8,648 nt of DNA. It comes from Gemmatimonadota bacterium (lineage in GTDB: Bacteria > Latescibacterota > UBA2968 > UBA8231). A program made the position numbers and the translations under genes. The stretch is from assembly GCA_002712305.1 (NCBI GenBank), contig PATE01000063.1:1-8648 (forward strand), given 5' to 3'. The notes under the pieces were generated by a model. The model was given only the letters and a program-made list of their open reading frames with translations. It searched no databases and was not told where the DNA came from. Each line of letters starts with the position of its first letter. Position 1 is the first letter of the stretch. Shown here piece by piece: positions 401 to 8,648 of the stretch.

Positions 401-2209
401 ATGAGTTATCAGGTCACTGCAAGAAAATGGCGCCCCCGCCGTTTCGACCAGGTTGTCGGTCAAGAGCACATCACCACGACGTTGATCAATGCTCTCGGTA
501 CGGGTCGCATTGCTCAATGCTACCTGTTCTGCGGCCCCCGGGGTGTGGGAAAGACCACGACGGCCCGCATCCTCGCAAAAGCCCTCAATTGCGCCAACGT
601 TGACGCGGGGGCCGATCCGTGCGACGACTGCCCTTCCTGCAAGAGCATCGCAGAAGGCACGAGCATGGACGTGCTCGAAATCGATGGAGCGTCGAACAAC
701 AGTGTCGACGACGTGCGTGACCTGCGCGAGGCCGTCCACTATATCCCGACGGGCGGTTCCTACAAGATCTACATCATCGACGAAGTCCACATGTTGTCCA
801 CGGCGGCCTTCAACGCGCTCCTCAAGACGCTGGAGGAGCCACCCGAACGCGTCGTGTTCGTCTTCGCCACAACAGAGGTGCAGGAGGTCCCCGAGACCAT
901 CCTGAGTCGATGTCAGCGCTTCAACTTTCGGCGTATCGCGACGGGCACGATCGCAGATCATTTGCGAACGATCGTGTCGGCCGAGAAGATCGAAGCCGAC
1001 GACGAAGCGCTGTTCCTACTGGCTCGACGTGCAGATGGAGCCCTGAGGGACGCGGAGAGCTTGCTGGACCAAGTGGTCTCCTTCAACGCCGAACGTCTCA
1101 CGACCGAGACGGTGGGCGACGTCCTCGGCCTCGTGGATGGCGGTGTCTTCTTCGACGTCGTGGAGGCGGTCAGCGCCGCTGATGCCACAAGAGTTCTCGA
1201 GCTGTTGTCCGGCGTCGTCGATGCAGGGGGAGACGTAGAGGAGTTCGTCCGGGGTCTGATCGAACATATCAGAAATCTTCTGTTCACTAAGGTCCAGGGT
1301 ACGGCCGATGAACTCGATGTGACCGAAACTGAGCGTGACAGATTGGGCGAAACGGCCCAGGGGATTCAAGAGCAAGATCTGCTGCGGGCCCTGCGTTCCC
1401 TGATGGATCTGGAAGGCGAATTGCGAAGATCTCTTCAACCTCGCTTCCGCACCGAACTGACCCTTGTCCGCCTGGCGGGAATGGGGAATGCAGTGGACGT
1501 GGGCCAACTGCTGGCTCGCCTGGCTGCTCTCGAAGCGACGATCGGACACGGGCAAACACCTGTACCCGTGACCTCACAACCCCAACCACCGCCGCGCAGA
1601 GCCGCCAGTACTCCCGTCCCGAGCCAAGCCGCGTCGGCTGCGGCTGCCCCTAGCGCATCACCGCCGATGCCCCCACCGGCACCGCCGCCGCCAGACGACA
1701 GTGCGCCCGAAGCAGCGCCACCCTCGGCGGCAGGATCAGCTTCTGCACAGTCCACAGAGCCTGCTCCTGCGCTCGTATCGGGGCCGGTCGATGTGAATCT
1801 GCTCAGGTCGCAGTGGCCACGGATCGTCGCTGAGGTCAGACAGCGACAACCATCCGCTGGAAACTTTCTCCAGGACATCGCTGATATGCGCCTGGGCGAC
1901 AACCAGTTGATCTTGTTGTTCCCCGCAACCGCCCGATTCAGTATGGGACAGGTTGCCAAGGCCCACGAAGCGATCAGCGGTGCCATCGAATCGGTGACCG
2001 GCGCGAAGCTGCACGTGAAGTGCTCCGTCGACGAGTCTGACGAAGGCGGCGGTGGCGGTGGCGCACATCAACCACCTGACCAGACACCCCCGCCCATGGG
2101 TGAACGGTCCACCCCTCCACCTCAGGTTCCCAAGGGCGCAGCGACCCGAGACGACGTGGATCCCTCCGTGCGTTCGGTTTTGGATGCCTTCGACGGGGAA
2201 ATTGTCTAG
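401..2209 (+). CDS. dnaX: DNA polymerase III subunit gamma/tau (clamp-loader ATPase)
   Basis: DnaX is the ATPase core of the clamp loader that opens the beta sliding clamp onto primed DNA and, as tau, couples polymerase cores to the replisome. The 602-residue protein has the family N-terminus MSYQVTARKWRP, which fixes the ATG start. Walker A GPRGVGKT is at 45-52. Zinc-binding cysteines are C64, C74, C77 and C80. Walker B IIDEVH is at 125-130, sensor 1 FATTE at 155-159, and the SRC arginine-finger motif at 169-171. The lid and helical collar domain run to about 375. A linker rich in Pro, Ala and Ser spans about 385-462, followed by a folded C-terminal domain (about 463-545), a Gly and Pro stretch, and the end DPSVRSVLDAFDGEIV, a tail seen in many DnaX proteins. 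No A-rich slippery site is visible, so no shorter gamma product by frameshifting is predicted. The Shine-Dalgarno is weak (CAGG at 389-392). Confidence 0.96.
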   Translation: MSYQVTARKWRPRRFDQVVGQEHITTTLINALGTGRIAQCYLFCGPRGVGKTTTARILAKALNCANVDAGADPCDDCPSCKSIAEGTSMDVLEIDGASNNSVDDVRDLREAVHYIPTGGSYKIYIIDEVHMLSTAAFNALLKTLEEPPERVVFVFATTEVQEVPETILSRCQRFNFRRIATGTIADHLRTIVSAEKIEADDEALFLLARRADGALRDAESLLDQVVSFNAERLTTETVGDVLGLVDGGVFFDVVEAVSAADATRVLELLSGVVDAGGDVEEFVRGLIEHIRNLLFTKVQGTADELDVTETERDRLGETAQGIQEQDLLRALRSLMDLEGELRRSLQPRFRTELTLVRLAGMGNAVDVGQLLARLAALEATIGHGQTPVPVTSQPQPPPRRAASTPVPSQAASAAAAPSASPPMPPPAPPPPDDSAPEAAPPSAAGSASAQSTEPAPALVSGPVDVNLLRSQWPRIVAEVRQRQPSAGNFLQDIADMRLGDNQLILLFPATARFSMGQVAKAHEAISGAIESVTGAKLHVKCSVDESDEGGGGGGAHQPPDQTPPPMGERSTPPPQVPKGAATRDDVDPSVRSVLDAFDGEIV

Positions 2210-2248: not shown

Positions 2249-2845
2249 GTGGGACCTGAACCCCTCGAAGATCTGGTGGTTGCCTTTACACGGTTGCCGG
2301 GGATCGGTCGTAAGACTGCTCAACGCCTTGCCCTCTATGTGCTCAAGTCGCCACCTCAGGAAGCCGAGTCTCTGGCGGCGGCGGTGCGGGCGGCGCGTGA
2401 GAACATCGGACACTGCACGAGATGTTTTCATCTGACGGAGCGAGGGCAGGAGTTGTGCCATATCTGTCGAGATCCAAGGCGAGACACAGGCATGATCTGC
2501 GTTGTCGAAGAGGCTTCCGATGCACTGGCTCTGGAACGAAGCGAACTGATGCGGGGGACGTATCACGTGCTCGGTGGCGCGTTGTCTCCCTTGGATGGAG
2601 TCGGTCCAGAAGACCTGCGGATAGCCGAGTTGGTGGAGCGCGTGCGGGAAGAGGGGATCAGAGAGGTGATTCTCGCGCACAACGCCAGCGCCGAGGGCGA
2701 AGCCACAGCCGAGTACATTCACCAGCGACTCGATGGAATGACACAGGTCTCCCGACTGGCTCGTGGTCTGCCCGCCGGATCAGATCTTGACCTGGCTGAT
2801 CGCACAACCCTCGCTCATGCCCTGCAGGGGCGCGTGCAATTCTAA
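2249..2845 (+). CDS. recR: Recombination mediator protein RecR
   Basis: RecR works with RecO and RecF to load RecA on SSB-coated single-stranded DNA at gaps. The 198-residue length is normal (E. coli has 201). A helix-hairpin-helix region is at 10-35 (LPGIGRKTAQR). A zinc finger uses C56, C59, C70 and C73. The Toprim domain is at about 82-170, with ICVVE at 83-87 and SPLDGVGPEDL at 113-123. The C-terminal part contains EGEATAEYI (149-157) and TTLAHALQGR (186-195). The GTG start follows AAGGTGG (2239-2245) with a short 3-base spacing; the N-terminus aligns with other RecR proteins, so the start is likely right. It begins 39 bases after dnaX. The dnaX-recR pair is widely conserved, but the nucleoid protein gene ybaB (ebfC) that often lies between them is absent here. 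Confidence 0.96.
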   Translation: MGPEPLEDLVVAFTRLPGIGRKTAQRLALYVLKSPPQEAESLAAAVRAARENIGHCTRCFHLTERGQELCHICRDPRRDTGMICVVEEASDALALERSELMRGTYHVLGGALSPLDGVGPEDLRIAELVERVREEGIREVILAHNASAEGEATAEYIHQRLDGMTQVSRLARGLPAGSDLDLADRTTLAHALQGRVQF

Positions 2846-2854: not shown

Positions 2855-3460
2855 GTGAGCGGTCATTCCATCATGAATCTGCCCAACCTGCTGACCGTTT
2901 CGCGGATTGTTGCAACGCCCATATTTCTCTTCCTGTTGCTGGCCGATGTCTGGTATCTGCGAGTAGGGTCTGTGCTCGTGTTCGCCGCTGCGTCCCTCAC
3001 CGATCTCTACGATGGCCGACTGGCCCGCTCAAGAGGCCGGGTAACCGAATTCGGTCGATTCATGGACCCCCTGGCCGACAAAATACTCGTGACGTCTGCC
3101 CTGGTAGCCCTGGCCGTGGGTCGAATTGTCAACGCCTGGCTCGTCATCCCCGTCGTCGTCAGAGACGTGATCATCACCTCAATGCGGATGTATGGACTGT
3201 ATCGAGGACAGATGATGGAGACCTCCCGGTTGGCGAAATGGAAAACAACCGTACAACTGATCACGATCTTCGTAATCCTTGTGATGATCGGTGTGCAGGA
3301 GCTATCGATTCACTACCAATGGCACAGCATCATCGACCTCGATTCGGCGATGTTTCCTCTTCTCGCCAACGGACTCATGGCGGTGGTCCTGCTCCTTACG
3401 GTGCTTTCCGGATTTCACTATCTTTTCCGCACTGAACAACACTCCAGCAGCGCACTCTGA
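2855..3460 (+). CDS. pgsA: CDP-diacylglycerol--glycerol-3-phosphate 3-phosphatidyltransferase
   Basis: This integral membrane enzyme transfers the phosphatidyl group from CDP-diacylglycerol to sn-glycerol 3-phosphate, giving phosphatidylglycerophosphate and CMP, the committed step to phosphatidylglycerol and cardiolipin. The CDP-alcohol phosphatidyltransferase signature is complete: D50, D53, G54, A57, R58, G67, D71 and D75. The N-terminus NLPNLLTVSRI (8-18) is typical of PgsA. Hydrophobic segments lie at about 18-48, 78-113, 131-148 and 166-190. The 201-residue length from GTG 2855 is normal; starting at ATG 2873 would give 195. The signature is shared with other CDP-alcohol transferases such as phosphatidylserine synthase, but the N-terminus and the adjacent pgpA gene support PgsA. 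It begins 9 bases after recR. Confidence 0.92.
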   Translation: MSGHSIMNLPNLLTVSRIVATPIFLFLLLADVWYLRVGSVLVFAAASLTDLYDGRLARSRGRVTEFGRFMDPLADKILVTSALVALAVGRIVNAWLVIPVVVRDVIITSMRMYGLYRGQMMETSRLAKWKTTVQLITIFVILVMIGVQELSIHYQWHSIIDLDSAMFPLLANGLMAVVLLLTVLSGFHYLFRTEQHSSSAL

Positions 3461-3501: not shown

Positions 3502-3969
3502 GTGGTTCGCACGTTTTTCGCTACCGTCGGGTACTCCGGTCTCGTCCCGATCGCGCCTGGGACGGCGGGTTCGGCGGTTACGGCCGTCATCTATGTCTTG
3601 CTGTGCGACTCGATGTCGACGATGGCCTGGCTCGTCGTACTGGCCGTAGTGGCGGCGATCTCCATACCGGTGGCCGGAGCAGAGGCCGAGGCGAGAGGCC
3701 GCAAGGATCCAGGGCCGGTGGTGATCGACGAGATGCTCGGATTCCTCGTCACGGTAGCATTCCTCCCCTACAGCCTGTCTATGACGCTGGCGGGCTTTCT
3801 ATTATTTCGCGTGCTGGATATCATCAAACCACCCCCGGCTCGCTGGCTAGAGCGCCTACCCGGGGGCTGGGGCATCGTTCTGGATGACGTTGCGGCAGGG
3901 ATCTGGGGAAACGTGATATTGCGGCTCGGGCTGTGGTGGCTCGGTGGTGACACAGCGCAGTCTACGTAA
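3502..3969 (+). CDS. pgpA: Phosphatidylglycerophosphatase A
   Basis: PgpA removes the terminal phosphate from phosphatidylglycerophosphate to give phosphatidylglycerol, the step after PgsA. The 155-residue protein has the family motifs in order: PIAPGTAGS (16-24), [12 protein letters not shown] (69-80, with D76 and E77 as probable metal or catalytic residues), [11 protein letters not shown] (102-112) and DDVAAG (128-133). Hydrophobic stretches at about 42-58, 78-101 and 132-147 fit a membrane protein. GTG 3502 is the only ATG, GTG or TTG start between an in-frame TGA at 3433 and the first conserved motif. No Shine-Dalgarno precedes it: the 41 bases after pgsA are rich in C and T. Translation may depend on ribosomes arriving from pgsA; a rare start near 3457 cannot be excluded. 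Confidence 0.93.
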
Positions 3970-3995: not shown

Positions 3996-5111
3996 ATGGC
4001 AAAGGGCAACAACGGCCGAGCGGACGTTCAGCGGCAGGATGACGATCGCGGCAGACAACAGGCCCTGGATCTGGCCCTGTCCCAGATCGAAAAACAGTAC
4101 GGCAAGGGCGCAATCATGCGCATGGGAGAGGAAGGTGGTGTGGTGGCCGTCGAGTCGATCCCGTCCGGCTCCATTGCGCTGGATGCAGCCCTCGGAATCG
4201 GCGGATTCCCGAGAGGCCGTGTCGTTGAGGTCTACGGACCTGAAGGGGCAGGGAAGACGATGGTTTCTCTGCACGCCATTCGCGAAGCGCAGCGAGCCGG
4301 CGGCACGGCGGCCTTCGTCGACGCCGAGCACGCACTGGATATCTCCTTTGCTCGTCGGATTGGTGTCGACGTCGAGAATCTCATCATCAGCCAGCCGGAT
4401 TCGGGCGAACAGGCTCTGGAGATCGTGGATACGCTGGTGCGTTCGGGAGCCTTCGATGTTGTCGTCCTCGATTCGGTAGCCGCCTTGGTCCCTCAAGCCG
4501 AACTGGAAGGCAACATGGGAGATTCCCACATGGGACTCCATGCTCGTCTGATGTCACAAGCTCTGCGCAAGCTCACCGGTTCGATCAATCGGTCGCGCAC
4601 CTGCGCCATCTTCATCAATCAGCTGCGCATGAAGATCGGCGTCATGTTCGGCAATCCGGAGACCACTACCGGAGGTCGGGCAATGGGTTTCTACGCGTCT
4701 TTGCGACTCGACATCCGGCGGATTGGGCACATCAAGGATGGTGACGAAACCATTGGCAGCCGTGTTCGCGTCAAGGTGGTCAAGAACAAACTGGCGCCAC
4801 CCTACCGCCAGGCGGAGATCGATCTCTACTACACGGGCAACCACATCGGTTTGTCGCGCGAGAGTGATCTCATCGATATCGGTGTCGACAAGGGGATCGT
4901 CGAGAAGTCAGGAACCTGGTTTTCCTGCGATGGGGAGCGACTGGGGCAGGGACGGGAGAATGCCCGGATGTTTCTGGTCGAAAATCCCGAGTTTGCCGCC
5001 AAGTTAGAATCCCGATTGCGAGAAGAACTCGGCATGCCTTCCGACGATGCATCGACGTCCCAGGACGATGCAGCAACGACACCGCAGGACGACGCCGAGA
5101 CGGCGGGCTGA
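3996..5111 (+). CDS. recA: Recombinase RecA
   Basis: RecA forms ATP-dependent filaments on single-stranded DNA, drives homologous pairing and strand exchange, and triggers LexA self-cleavage where LexA exists. The 371-residue protein aligns along its length with E. coli RecA with an offset of about 15. Walker A is GPEGAGKT (81-88), catalytic E111 lies in DAEHALD, and Walker B VVVLDS is at 155-160. Loop L1 is near [10 protein letters not shown] (171-180), Q209 lies in FINQLRMK, and loop L2 includes GNPETTTGG (219-227). Interface lysines K263 and K265 (E. coli K248 and K250) are kept. Two oddities stand out. Walker A has GA where nearly all RecA proteins have SS, and GFY (231-233) replaces KFY, losing the equivalent of K216. 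The C-terminal tail is acidic, with three DDA units (350-367). Synteny with recX says it is the main RecA, not a paralogue. Confidence 0.97.
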
Positions 5112-5118
5112 GTTTCAC

Positions 5119-5607
5119 GTGAGCGAGGAAGTCACCAAGACCCGGCGGATCGCGTTTGAGTTGCTGGCCGTACGTGATCGCTCCGTTCGTGAAATGGGCG
5201 AACGGCTTGTGCGTCGCGGTTGCGAACAGGATGCAATCGACACAGTGGTGCCGGATCTGTGCGACAAGGGACTACTCGATGACTCAACCTTCGTGCGTCG
5301 CTGGGTCAGCAGTCGGCTCGAGAATCGGCCCGAAGGACGCATCAAGTTGATCCAGGATTTGTGCAAGAGAGGCATTGACCGATCCCTGGCCGAGCAGGTG
5401 CTGGCAGAGTTCGAGGATGACATCGGCACCGATGACGTCGCAGATCGTGTTCTCGCCCGTGTGGCTCACCGATACACTGGTATAGAGCACGACGCGGCGC
5501 GGAGGCGGATGTACGGACTGCTCGCGAGAAGAGGGTTCGATCCCGATACGACAAGGGCCGCCGTGGAGCGTGCCATGAATGCTTTAACAGGAACGACCGC
5601 ACCATGA
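5119..5607 (+). CDS. recX: Regulatory protein RecX (RecA modulator)
   Basis: RecX binds in the groove of RecA filaments and limits or modulates RecA activity; it is often encoded directly after recA, as here. From GTG 5119 the product has 162 residues (E. coli RecX has 166). It is highly charged and helical, with the three-helix repeats of the family: AFELLAVRDRSVREMGERL (12-30), the region around GLLDDSTFVRRWV (51-63), and IKLIQDLCKRGI (75-86). A third unit covers about 103-155, including YGLLARRGFD (132-141). The reading frame is open upstream to ATG 5047, but those codons lie inside recA and read as Arg-rich sequence unlike RecX, so GTG 5119, 7 bases after the recA stop, is preferred. The Shine-Dalgarno is weak, suggesting coupling to recA. 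Confidence 0.87.
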   Translation: MSEEVTKTRRIAFELLAVRDRSVREMGERLVRRGCEQDAIDTVVPDLCDKGLLDDSTFVRRWVSSRLENRPEGRIKLIQDLCKRGIDRSLAEQVLAEFEDDIGTDDVADRVLARVAHRYTGIEHDAARRRMYGLLARRGFDPDTTRAAVERAMNALTGTTAP

Positions 5608-8216
5608 TGACATCGGATCAGATTCGTGAGACCTTCCTGAGTTTCTTCGAGGGCAAGGGACATACACGGGTTCCCAGTGCGCCTGTCGTGCCTCACGATG
5701 ACCCGACTCTCTATTTCACCAATGCCGGGATGAATCAGTTCAAGGACGTGTTTCTCGGACTGGGCTCACGGCCCTACACACGCGCCGTCGACACGCAGAA
5801 GTGTATTCGAGTCTCAGGCAAACACAACGACCTGGAAGAGGTCGGCATCAGTCCCTGGCACCACACCTTTTTCGAGATGCTCGGCAACTGGTCCTTCGGA
5901 GATTACTTCAAGGAAGAGGCCATCCAGTGGCACTGGGAGCTGGTGACCGAGCACTACAAGATGCCGAAGGAGCGGCTGTGGGCAACCGTCTACGAGGGCG
6001 GTGAGGGCGTGCCCGCCGATGAGGAGGCGGAGGCACTGTGGTACCAGGTGACCGACCTGTTGCCGGGCCGCGTCGTGCGCCTGCCGGCGAAGGACAACTT
6101 CTGGGAGATGGGAGCCAGCGGCCCCTGCGGGCCGTGCTCGGAGATCCACTACTTCCTGGGTGACGATCTCGAAGCGCAGACCGAGGCCCTGTTTCGCCAG
6201 GACGGCCCCGAGTTCGTCGAAGTGGGCAATCTCGTCTTCATTCAATACAACCGGGACGAGAGTGGCGCCCTGCATCCGCTGCCGGCAGTCCACGTGGATA
6301 CGGGTAGCGGCTTTGAGCGCCTGTGCAGTCTGCTACAGGAGAAGGACAACAACTACGACACAGATGTCTTCCGGCCGCTGATCGAGCAGATCGCCGAGAT
6401 CGCCGGTAGTGATCCCGACGGCGATTCAACCCGCGTACCGATGCGGGTGATCGCCGACCACGTGCGCACTCTCACCTTCGCCATCGCCGATGGTGCGTTG
6501 CCCTCCAATGACGGCCGTGGTTACGTGCTGCGACGGATCCTGCGTCGGGCGGCGCGATTCGGTCGTCAGCTCGACCAGCATGACCCCTTCATCTACAAGG
6601 TCGTGTCTACCCTGGCAGAGCAGGTGGGGCACGTGTTCCCCGAGGCCCGCGCCAAGGCCGCACACGTATCCCAGGTGATCCGGGCCGAGGAGGAGTCCTT
6701 CGGCAAAACGCTCGATCGAGGGCTCGAGATTTTTGAGCGCCTCGCCGCCAAGGGTGACGTGAGCGGTGCCGACGCGTTCCAGCTCTACGATACTTTCGGT
6801 TTCCCTCTTGATCTGACGGAACTGATGTCTCGTGAGCGGAATCTGAGTGTCGATACCGATGGGTTTTCGGAAGCACTGGAGCAACAGCGACAACGAGCCC
6901 GGGCTGCCACACGCAATCGGTTCCAGGCATCGGAGGGCATCGATGACGTGGTTGACGGAGAGCATTCCCGTTTCATCGGGTACGGGCAGCTTGAGACACA
7001 GACGACAGTGGCTCACAGCGAGTCCCAAGATGGCCAGGTCCGGCTCGTGCTCGAAGAAACACCCTTCTATGCCGAGTCCGGTGGCCAGGTAGGTGATCGG
7101 GGGGTGCTCTCGGGAGACGGATTTCGCATCCGCATCGAGACAACATTGAAGGGCCGGGGTGGTATCGTGCATGTGGGGCAGCTCGAGGATGGTGCCTTGC
7201 CGGCCAGTGGGGCTGGTGTGCAGGCAACGGTGGATGCGGGGCTGCGGCAATCCTCAGCCCGTCACCATACGGCGACTCACCTGCTACATGAGGCACTTCG
7301 ACAAACCCTTGGTGACCACGTAGATCAGATGGGGTCTCTCGTCGATCCCGATCGTTTGCGCTTCGACTTCTCACATTTTTCTGCTGTCGAGGCGGGACAA
7401 CTACGTCAGATCGAAGACATCGTCAACGAGACCATCCGCGCGGATCTGGAAGTCGAGACGTTCGAGGAGGACCTTACCAGAGCCAGAGAGCTTGGCGCAC
7501 GAGCCCTATTCGGAGAGAAGTACGACGAACAGGTTCGGGTCGTGCGGATCGCCGATTTCAGCCTCGAATTGTGCGGGGGGACCCACGTGACACACACGGG
7601 CCAGATCGGCGCGTTCGAGCTCACGACCGAAGGGGGAATCGCCGCCGGGACTCGCCGTGTCGAGGCAACGGGTGGCGCACCCGCCTCGACCATGGCGCGG
7701 CAGAATCGCGAGCGTCTCGGAGACCTGGGCCAGATGCTCAATGCGACACCTGAAGAAGTACCCCAAGCGGTCAGACAGTTGCTCGAACGCAATCGTGATC
7801 TTGAAAAAGCACTTACCGACGCCCGCCGTCAGGCCGCAACCGACAGTGCGGGTGATCTGCTGGAGCACGCTGTCGACATGGAAGGTATGCGACTCGTCGC
7901 CGCTCGAGTCGACGTCGATGACGTGCCCAGTCTGCGGTCCATGGCCGACGGTCTGCGCGAGCGACTCGGGAGCGGCGTTGCCGTCCTCGGGGGTGAACTG
8001 CAGGGGAAGGTGTCCTTCATCGCAGTCGTCACCGACGATCTGATACAGGGGCGTTCGCTGAAGGCGGGCGATGTCGTGAAGGGTGTCGCCCAGTTGGCTG
8101 GAGGTTCCGGAGGCGGCAAGCCGCACATGGCTCAAGCCGGTGGCAGAGACGCAGAGAAAATCGACGAGGCCCTCGCCGCGGCGCCTGCCATTGTCAGAGA
8201 ACTTCTGGCGTCCTGA
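5604..8216 (+). CDS. alaS: Alanyl-tRNA synthetase
   Basis: AlaRS attaches alanine to tRNA-Ala and hydrolyses mischarged Ser- and Gly-tRNA-Ala. The 870 residues match the usual length (E. coli 876). The catalytic domain (1 to about 250) has TQKCIRVSGKHNDLEEVG (64-81), FEMLGNWSFGDYF (90-102), NFWEMG (165-170), GPCGPCSEI (173-181) and DTGSGFERL (232-240). A tRNA-recognition helical domain follows to about 460. The editing domain has zinc ligands H555 and H559 (HTATH) and C657 and H661 (CGGTH). A coiled linker (about 725-750) leads to the C-Ala domain, with GGSGGGKPHMAQAGG near 833-847. ATG 5604 overlaps the recX stop (ATGA); a second ATG at 5607 is equally possible. CAGGA at 5588-5592 may be the ribosome site. 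Its substrate, tRNA-Ala with G3:U70, is at the left of the window. Confidence 0.98.
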   Translation: MMTSDQIRETFLSFFEGKGHTRVPSAPVVPHDDPTLYFTNAGMNQFKDVFLGLGSRPYTRAVDTQKCIRVSGKHNDLEEVGISPWHHTFFEMLGNWSFGDYFKEEAIQWHWELVTEHYKMPKERLWATVYEGGEGVPADEEAEALWYQVTDLLPGRVVRLPAKDNFWEMGASGPCGPCSEIHYFLGDDLEAQTEALFRQDGPEFVEVGNLVFIQYNRDESGALHPLPAVHVDTGSGFERLCSLLQEKDNNYDTDVFRPLIEQIAEIAGSDPDGDSTRVPMRVIADHVRTLTFAIADGALPSNDGRGYVLRRILRRAARFGRQLDQHDPFIYKVVSTLAEQVGHVFPEARAKAAHVSQVIRAEEESFGKTLDRGLEIFERLAAKGDVSGADAFQLYDTFGFPLDLTELMSRERNLSVDTDGFSEALEQQRQRARAATRNRFQASEGIDDVVDGEHSRFIGYGQLETQTTVAHSESQDGQVRLVLEETPFYAESGGQVGDRGVLSGDGFRIRIETTLKGRGGIVHVGQLEDGALPASGAGVQATVDAGLRQSSARHHTATHLLHEALRQTLGDHVDQMGSLVDPDRLRFDFSHFSAVEAGQLRQIEDIVNETIRADLEVETFEEDLTRARELGARALFGEKYDEQVRVVRIADFSLELCGGTHVTHTGQIGAFELTTEGGIAAGTRRVEATGGAPASTMARQNRERLGDLGQMLNATPEEVPQAVRQLLERNRDLEKALTDARRQAATDSAGDLLEHAVDMEGMRLVAARVDVDDVPSLRSMADGLRERLGSGVAVLGGELQGKVSFIAVVTDDLIQGRSLKAGDVVKGVAQLAGGSGGGKPHMAQAGGRDAEKIDEALAAAPAIVRELLAS

Positions 8217-8229
8217 CGGGCAAGGTCGA

Positions 8230-8648
8230 ATGACGACACTCGAACGGCTGTTGCAGGTGCGCCAACGACGCGGGGCTGGCTATCTCACGCTCCTTGACCC
8301 CGATCGGTTGTCCCTCGATGAGCTGTCCAAACGGGCAGAATTGTGTGCCGAAGCGGGGGCCGACGCGATCCTTGTCGGAACGTCGCTCATGCTTTCAGCG
8401 AGCCGCAACGCAGCTCTGTTCGATCATCTTCATCAGATTGTCGACATCCCCGTCATCTCCTTCCCAGGCGATGCGGGACAGGTCGTGCCCAATGCGGACG
8501 CCATCCTGTTTCTCTCCATGGTGAGTGGCCGTAATCCCGAACTGCTGATCGGCCAGCAAGTTCGCGCGGCACCTGTGCTGAAGGAGTATGGCGTGGAGGC
8601 CATCGCTACCGCATATATGCTCATCGAGTCCGGCACGCTCACGTCGAC
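8230..8648 (+). CDS. Geranylgeranylglyceryl phosphate synthase / PcrB family protein, N-terminal 139 residues (cut by window end)
   Basis: Enzymes of this TIM-barrel family join sn-glycerol 1-phosphate to a polyprenyl diphosphate, forming the first ether bond of archaeal-type lipids. In archaea the prenyl donor is geranylgeranyl diphosphate; in Bacillus PcrB it is heptaprenyl diphosphate. Visible family features are LLDPDR (21-26), EAGADAILVGTS (41-52), IPVISFPG (73-80), ADAILFLSMVSGRNPELLIG (89-108) and the phosphate-binding TAYMLIESG (127-135). The motif FLSxxSGRNPxxLIG with QQ and AAP after it fits the group II enzymes of Bacteroidetes-like bacteria. The ATG at 8230 has AAGG at 8222-8225 and begins 13 bases after alaS. 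The family is about 230-250 residues, so roughly 100 are missing. Chain length cannot be judged from the visible part. The activity is inferred from the family. Confidence 0.87.
   Translation, partial: MTTLERLLQVRQRRGAGYLTLLDPDRLSLDELSKRAELCAEAGADAILVGTSLMLSASRNAALFDHLHQIVDIPVISFPGDAGQVVPNADAILFLSMVSGRNPELLIGQQVRAAPVLKEYGVEAIATAYMLIESGTLTS

Follow-up and report, generated by a model that had tools for sequence, protein, structure and literature searches.

Does a gene of the archaeal-type GGGPS/PcrB family, found behind a run of core genes in a Latescibacterota bacterium, belong to a pathway that would give its host archaeal-type lipids beside bacterial ones, and how long has it been part of this genome? 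We addressed this question in a 4.77-Mb MAG (146 contigs, 90.9% complete, 2.4% contaminated) from a phylum that NCBI places in the FCB group. The window, meaning the whole stretch of DNA analysed, comprises the first 8,648 bases of the 120,772-bp contig C84. Its genes are as follows.

401..2209, plus strand: dnaX, first of the gene run (open frame, synteny)
2249..2845, plus strand: recR (open frame, synteny)
2855..3460, plus strand: pgsA, CDP-diacylglycerol--glycerol-3-phosphate 3-phosphatidyltransferase (TIGR00560, 125 bits, over cut-off; PF01066)
3502..3969, plus strand: pgpA, phosphatidylglycerophosphatase A (PF04608, 139 bits)
3996..5111, plus strand: recA, part of a conserved recA-recX-alaS-GGGPS order (open frame, tblastn synteny, sequence)
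5047..5607, plus strand: recX (open frame, synteny); its listed start was set mechanically, and translation probably begins further downstream
5604..8216, plus strand: alaS, alanyl-tRNA synthetase, directly upstream of GGGPS (open frame, synteny)
8230..8648, plus strand: GGGPS gene, 5' part, 139 of 249 codons (open frame); its stop is at contig position 8979, beyond the window

We take the gene at 5604..8216 to be alaS from its place in the conserved cluster and from general knowledge of AlaS. As the original prediction had stated, pgsA and pgpA (identified by TIGR00560 and PF04608) lie upstream on the same strand, 4-5 kb from GGGPS; the pgsA product is a candidate headgroup enzyme for ester as well as archaeol-type lipids. 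The prediction of a GGGPS/PcrB-family gene at 8230-8648 was likewise accurate in its frame, its 139 visible residues and all three motifs, LLDPDR, LFLSMVSGRNPELLIG and TAYMLIESG. Read to its end on the contig (8230-8979), the gene is intact and encodes 249 aa with no internal stop and with conserved residues at the site for glycerol 1-phosphate (G1P). Its ATG at 8230 follows the alaS stop (8216) after 13 bases, and one of its residues is ambiguous due to an N in the assembly. Scattered N bases occur in this assembly; the contig's first 20 kb (L012:1-20000) hold 70 of them, some within the GGGPS gene.

The protein matches the family profiles far beyond chance: it scores 148 bits with PF01884 (Pfam PcrB; cut-off 23.9), 272 with NF003198 (cut-off 247) and 203 with TIGR01769 (cut-off 161.55), and it also exceeds the cut-off of TIGR01768. 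In a search of the whole genome for PcrB/GGGPS, the gene at 8230 was the sole match (E = 7e-43). Among solved structures, the best match was FjGGGPS of Flavobacterium johnsoniae (4jej, 173 bits), followed by Methanothermobacter GGGPS (4mm1, 156 bits), the GGGPS chains 6jo3 and 6nke (142 and 131 bits), Bacillus PcrB (3vzx, 48 bits) and A. fulgidus GGGPS (40 bits). By its sequence, the protein is a group II GGGPS of the bacterial subgroup, FCB type, in a published scheme (PMC9385802). A Bacillus-type PcrB (group Ib) was rejected on the 33 bits obtained with NF003197, against a cut-off of 260, and on the 48 bits with 3vzx against 173 with 4jej. Contamination or a chimera was also rejected, as the 120-kb contig that carries the gene has dnaX, recA and alaS in the order seen in relatives. 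The top GGGPS relative in named genomes comes from MAG SI074_bin69, labelled Gemmatimonadetes (87%), and the next from Candidatus Latescibacterota MAG Baikal-deep-G205 (61%).

The residues expected of a G1P-using enzyme are in place. Y129, Y173 and E175 align with the conserved Tyr/Tyr/Glu 134/178/180 of FjGGGPS, numbers that a structural review assigns to MtGGGPS and that in our alignment fit the Fj chain. This triad serves G1P specificity and catalysis in GGGPS (PMC9385802). The phosphate-binding loops GSGA (177-180) and GGGI (203-206) are present, as is V224-T225-G226-T227, in which Thr227 is the group II Thr where group I has Asn. At the aligned position of the chain-length limiter (I90 in Fj, V86 in Mt) the protein carries V85, a small residue, and the predicted donor is therefore GGPP (C20) and not the C35 chain used by PcrB.

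We then considered how widespread the gene is and how it is inherited. Leaving aside the genome under study, 55 of 59 relatives had a GGGPS that scored above cut-off, a count that leaves out weak PF01884 matches in two genomes (G051, G055) spanning only model positions ~163-215. DGGGPS was found in 52/59 and both genes together in 49/59, and a homologue of G1P dehydrogenase (G1PDH) in 10/59, the same-genus genome not among them. All three core archaeal genes occur together in this genome and in eight relatives.

Of the 29 loci read in the phylum, 27 have GGGPS behind alaS and on its strand, the exceptions being one locus without an adjacent alaS and one contig that begins at the GGGPS gene. 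Among named genomes, those of KSB1 and Eisenbacteria share the recA-recX-alaS-GGGPS order, and Edwardsbacteria has alaS-GGGPS. Tree distances of GGGPS correlate with those of AlaS at r = 0.96 (15 genomes, 105 pairs) and, for the same loci where RecA was available, with those of RecA at r = 0.90; such a correlation of distances is no formal congruence test. Gene order and trees together lead us to prefer the view that GGGPS is an ancient member of a gene block linked to alaS and has been passed on vertically. Recent transfer from archaea found no support, as GGGPS distances track those of both AlaS and RecA. An origin before the FCB radiation has been argued from gene trees, and linkage of GGGPS to DGGGPS has been considered ancestral (Villanueva 2021, PMC7852524). 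The alaS linkage is an argument separate from those gene trees, and we did not find it used for the age of GGGPS in the literature searched. Directly downstream of GGGPS in this genome lies a CpsB/CapC-type gene (L012:8988-9794, plus strand), with the genes for HPr and PTS enzyme I after it, and cpsB/capC-like, ptsH and ptsI genes often follow alaS-GGGPS in the phylum.

Beyond the window, the genome encodes an AraM-type G1PDH homologue of 458 aa on contig C21. It scores E = 4.5e-49 with NF002022 against 5.9e-11 for glycerol dehydrogenase; its best family is G1PDH at 167 bits, where the archaeal equivalog cut-off is 413, and the nearest solved chain is a G1P dehydrogenase (9h4x, E = 2.5e-44). 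Positions D201/H281/H301, aligned with M. jannaschii 4rgq and presumably the Asp/His/His metal ligands, are kept in relatives. G1P dehydrogenase activity appears likely but not certain, because the score falls under the archaeal equivalog cut-off; for that reason, and given its patchy distribution, the homologue may serve another role. Read by eye, its neighbours are sialidase-like, sulfotransferase-like and ABC-F genes and no lipid genes. The ABC-F gene adjoins it here and in several relatives, which makes contamination less likely as its source. By sequence, other iron-ADH matches (C41, C97, C101, C128) were a DHQ-synthase-like protein and general alcohol dehydrogenases, of which the one on C97 was profile-scanned.

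The source of the glycerol phosphate bears on two other explanations. GGGPS could take glycerol 3-phosphate (G3P) in vivo, which would yield isoprenoid ethers of bacterial stereochemistry and no mixture of chirality. Most relatives do lack a detectable G1PDH, and a Cloacimonetes enzyme was promiscuous for G3P in an assay, yet GGGPS was strongly selective for G1P in vivo in E. coli (PMC7852524), the G1P-site residues are conserved here and this genome encodes a G1PDH homologue, so that we regard the use of G3P as quite unlikely. Alternatively, the archaeal-type enzymes might run in reverse to dismantle scavenged archaeal lipids, with the AraM-type dehydrogenase passing G1P to central metabolism. 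This has been raised for FCB lineages without G1PDH (PMC6431249), marine bacteria are documented to take up G1P (PMC12718374), and the surroundings of the G1PDH gene are not those of a lipid gene. A near-universal, vertical and alaS-linked GGGPS nevertheless suits a biosynthetic core better than optional catabolism, and FCB homologues show forward activity (PMC7852524); we hold the reverse direction to be highly improbable.

The second archaeal-type step is probably encoded on contig C139, where DGGGPS, a member of the functionally diverse UbiA superfamily, starts 334 bases from the contig end and is in frame until cut at residue 111. The second half was sought in the genome and not found. The truncated gene is orthologous to complete ones in relatives. 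In a same-genus genome (G001) it is complete and has the same neighbouring genes, and the product of that copy matches MjDGGGPS (6m31) over its full length with E = 9e-29, against 3e-5 for chlorophyll synthase; it reaches 183 bits with NF009521, under the cut-off of 296. Other UbiA proteins were rejected as DGGGPS: a haem o synthase (C141), a UbiA/MqnP-type enzyme (C50), a decaprenyl-phosphate phosphoribosyltransferase-like protein (C1) and a protein on C51. GGGPS and DGGGPS thus co-occur with the bacterial phospholipid enzymes CdsA (C32), PgsA and PgpA, and the genome also holds a prenyl diphosphate synthase (C84) and a fab cluster (C54). A search of the genome gave no match to CarS, whose absence need not matter according to published work (PMC7852524). 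Of the ether-lipid genes that the original prediction had proposed to look for, a G1PDH homologue and DGGGPS are encoded, and CarS is the one that did not turn up; neither of the outcomes that the prediction had named as refuting it, a truncated gene or one lacking the G1P site and a genome devoid of G1PDH and further ether-lipid enzymes, was observed. Geranylgeranyl reductase (GGR) gave no match above the TIGR02032 cut-off in the genome, so the chains would remain unsaturated without the help of some other reductase; such reductases are encoded in Cloacimonetes MAGs (PMC7852524).

These partner genes also speak to whether GGGPS might work in a PcrB-like side pathway, in which a single prenyl chain placed on G1P would be dephosphorylated and capped as a minor non-phospholipid, the UbiA partner being employed elsewhere. 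Bacillus PcrB/AraM offers a precedent (PMC9179154, PMC13400652), UbiA enzymes are diverse in function and the genome search found neither GGR nor CarS. We nonetheless consider this unlikely, as the group II sequence is far from PcrB (173 against 48 bits), 49 of 59 relatives keep GGGPS and DGGGPS together and the same-genus DGGGPS aligns with archaeal 6m31 over its full length.

Our preferred reading, to which we give a probability of roughly 70%, is that a functional, vertically inherited group II GGGPS feeds DGGGPS, CdsA, PgsA and PgpA to yield archaetidylglycerol-type phospholipids. GGGPS would join geranylgeranyl diphosphate to sn-glycerol 1-phosphate, supplied here probably by the AraM-type dehydrogenase on C21 and, in relatives without this homologue, presumably from some other source. 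DGGGPS on C139 would add the second chain, after which CdsA, PgsA and PgpA, all of bacterial type, would convert the product into archaetidylglycerol-type phospholipids used alongside fatty-acid phospholipids. Homologous Cloacimonetes enzymes yielded PG-archaeol in E. coli (PMC7852524). From the genes observed here, with their families, conserved residues, order and distribution, we infer the activity of GGGPS, its chain length and stereochemistry and any contribution to the membrane, and with them the production of archaeal-type or mixed lipids, which the original prediction had also offered as inference.

We further investigated the bacterial side of glycerolipid synthesis. No PlsY, the enzyme that usually acylates glycerol 3-phosphate, turned up in this genome or in any of the 46 same-class relatives searched; it is present in 11 of 13 genomes from other classes of the phylum. 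PlsY is also absent from Bacteroides ihuae, used as a control, and its absence alone is therefore no sign that ester lipids are absent. On C54 (L233 ~13289-18600, minus strand) the genes run yceD-rpmF-fabH-fabD-fabG-acpP-fabF-rnc, where acpP and rnc were assigned by eye from their place and sequence, and plsX is missing between rpmF and fabH, its usual place. PlsX and GpsA gave no match in the 2.13 Mb (45%) of the genome sampled in stretches, which is no proof of absence. The enzymes that normally begin phospholipid synthesis in bacteria appear to be missing from the class.

Two PlsC-family acyltransferases remain in the genome. The first is part of an ElbD-type fusion of 1414 residues on C115 (L169:4990-9234, plus strand) with fatty-acyl reductase, acyl-CoA synthetase, ACP-like and acyltransferase domains, which suggests a second, alkyl-ether lipid route. 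The second is a 277-residue protein on C75 (L170:9503-10336, plus strand; in G001, L178:10067-10921) in which HX4E takes the place of HX4D and FPQTTR that of FPEGTR, possibly a divergent glycerol-phosphate acyltransferase. The single-contig genomes G027 and G030, of the same class, have one PlsC-family match. Since fatty-acid synthesis genes and Lgt are present, the organism probably has some way of making ester lipids. A bolder version, that the class lost the PlsX/PlsY start and kept GGGPS and DGGGPS almost throughout, that ether-forming enzymes (GGGPS on G1P, with ElbD-type enzymes in some families) largely begin its glycerolipids and that archaeal-type lipids or ether-ester hybrids are major components of the membrane and no mere traces, strikes us as quite unlikely.

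GGGPS and DGGGPS were already known from FCB bacteria including Latescibacteria (Coleman 2019; Villanueva 2021), and the novelty implied by the original prediction was too high, the trait having been published for this group (PMC6431249). Coleman 2019 reported both genes in each of the 12 FCB phyla covered, including Latescibacteria, and G1PDH among FCB phyla in Fibrobacteres and Cloacimonetes only (PMC6431249); Yokobori 2016 gave no G1PDH for Latescibacteria (PMC5059525). The three-gene set in this phylum adds to these two surveys, and a report in other papers is possible. To this we add, modestly, a more complete set of genes, the link of GGGPS to alaS and the apparent lack of PlsX/PlsY.

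An active pathway would place an uncultured FCB phylum among the bacteria for which both membrane chemistries have been proposed, with consequences for how the lipid divide is thought to have arisen and for the use of archaeol as an archaeal biomarker. The linkage of GGGPS to alaS over several phyla offers a simple, checkable case for the age of the gene in this bacterial branch. Moreover, whether such ether lipids can be a main component of the membrane is better tested in a class that has GGGPS and DGGGPS and no apparent PlsY than in lineages whose ester pathway is complete.

Altogether, the system can be set beside several known ones. It shares with the Bacillus PcrB/AraM heptaprenylglyceryl phosphate pathway an enzyme superfamily, G1P chemistry and an AraM-type dehydrogenase, but PcrB belongs to group Ib, uses a C35 donor and has low similarity (48 bits), and here there is a DGGGPS partner. 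The fusion on C115 has the FAR-ACS-ACP-acyltransferase domain order of Myxococcus ElbD (PMC9131029), which acts in a separate fatty-alkyl ether route outside the GGGPS pathway. Where Coleman 2019 (PMC6431249) reported G1PDH from two FCB phyla only, we see homologues of it in this genome and in 10 relatives from the same phylum. The 'mixed membrane' pathway of Ca. Cloacimonetes (Villanueva 2021, PMC7852524) has the same GGGPS, DGGGPS and bacterial CdsA/PgsA/PgpA and likewise no CarS. It differs in that GGR is present there and was not found here, nor was PlsY, whereas our genome has a G1PDH homologue that is lacking there, and in that the GGGPS and DGGGPS genes are not co-localised in our genome. 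GGGPS stands here in the alaS-linked block, with pgsA-pgpA-recA-recX upstream. At the level of the enzyme itself, FjGGGPS (4jej, group IIb, Bacteroidetes) comes from another FCB phylum but carries the same Tyr/Tyr/Glu, the same GSGA and GGGI loops and a small limiter residue.
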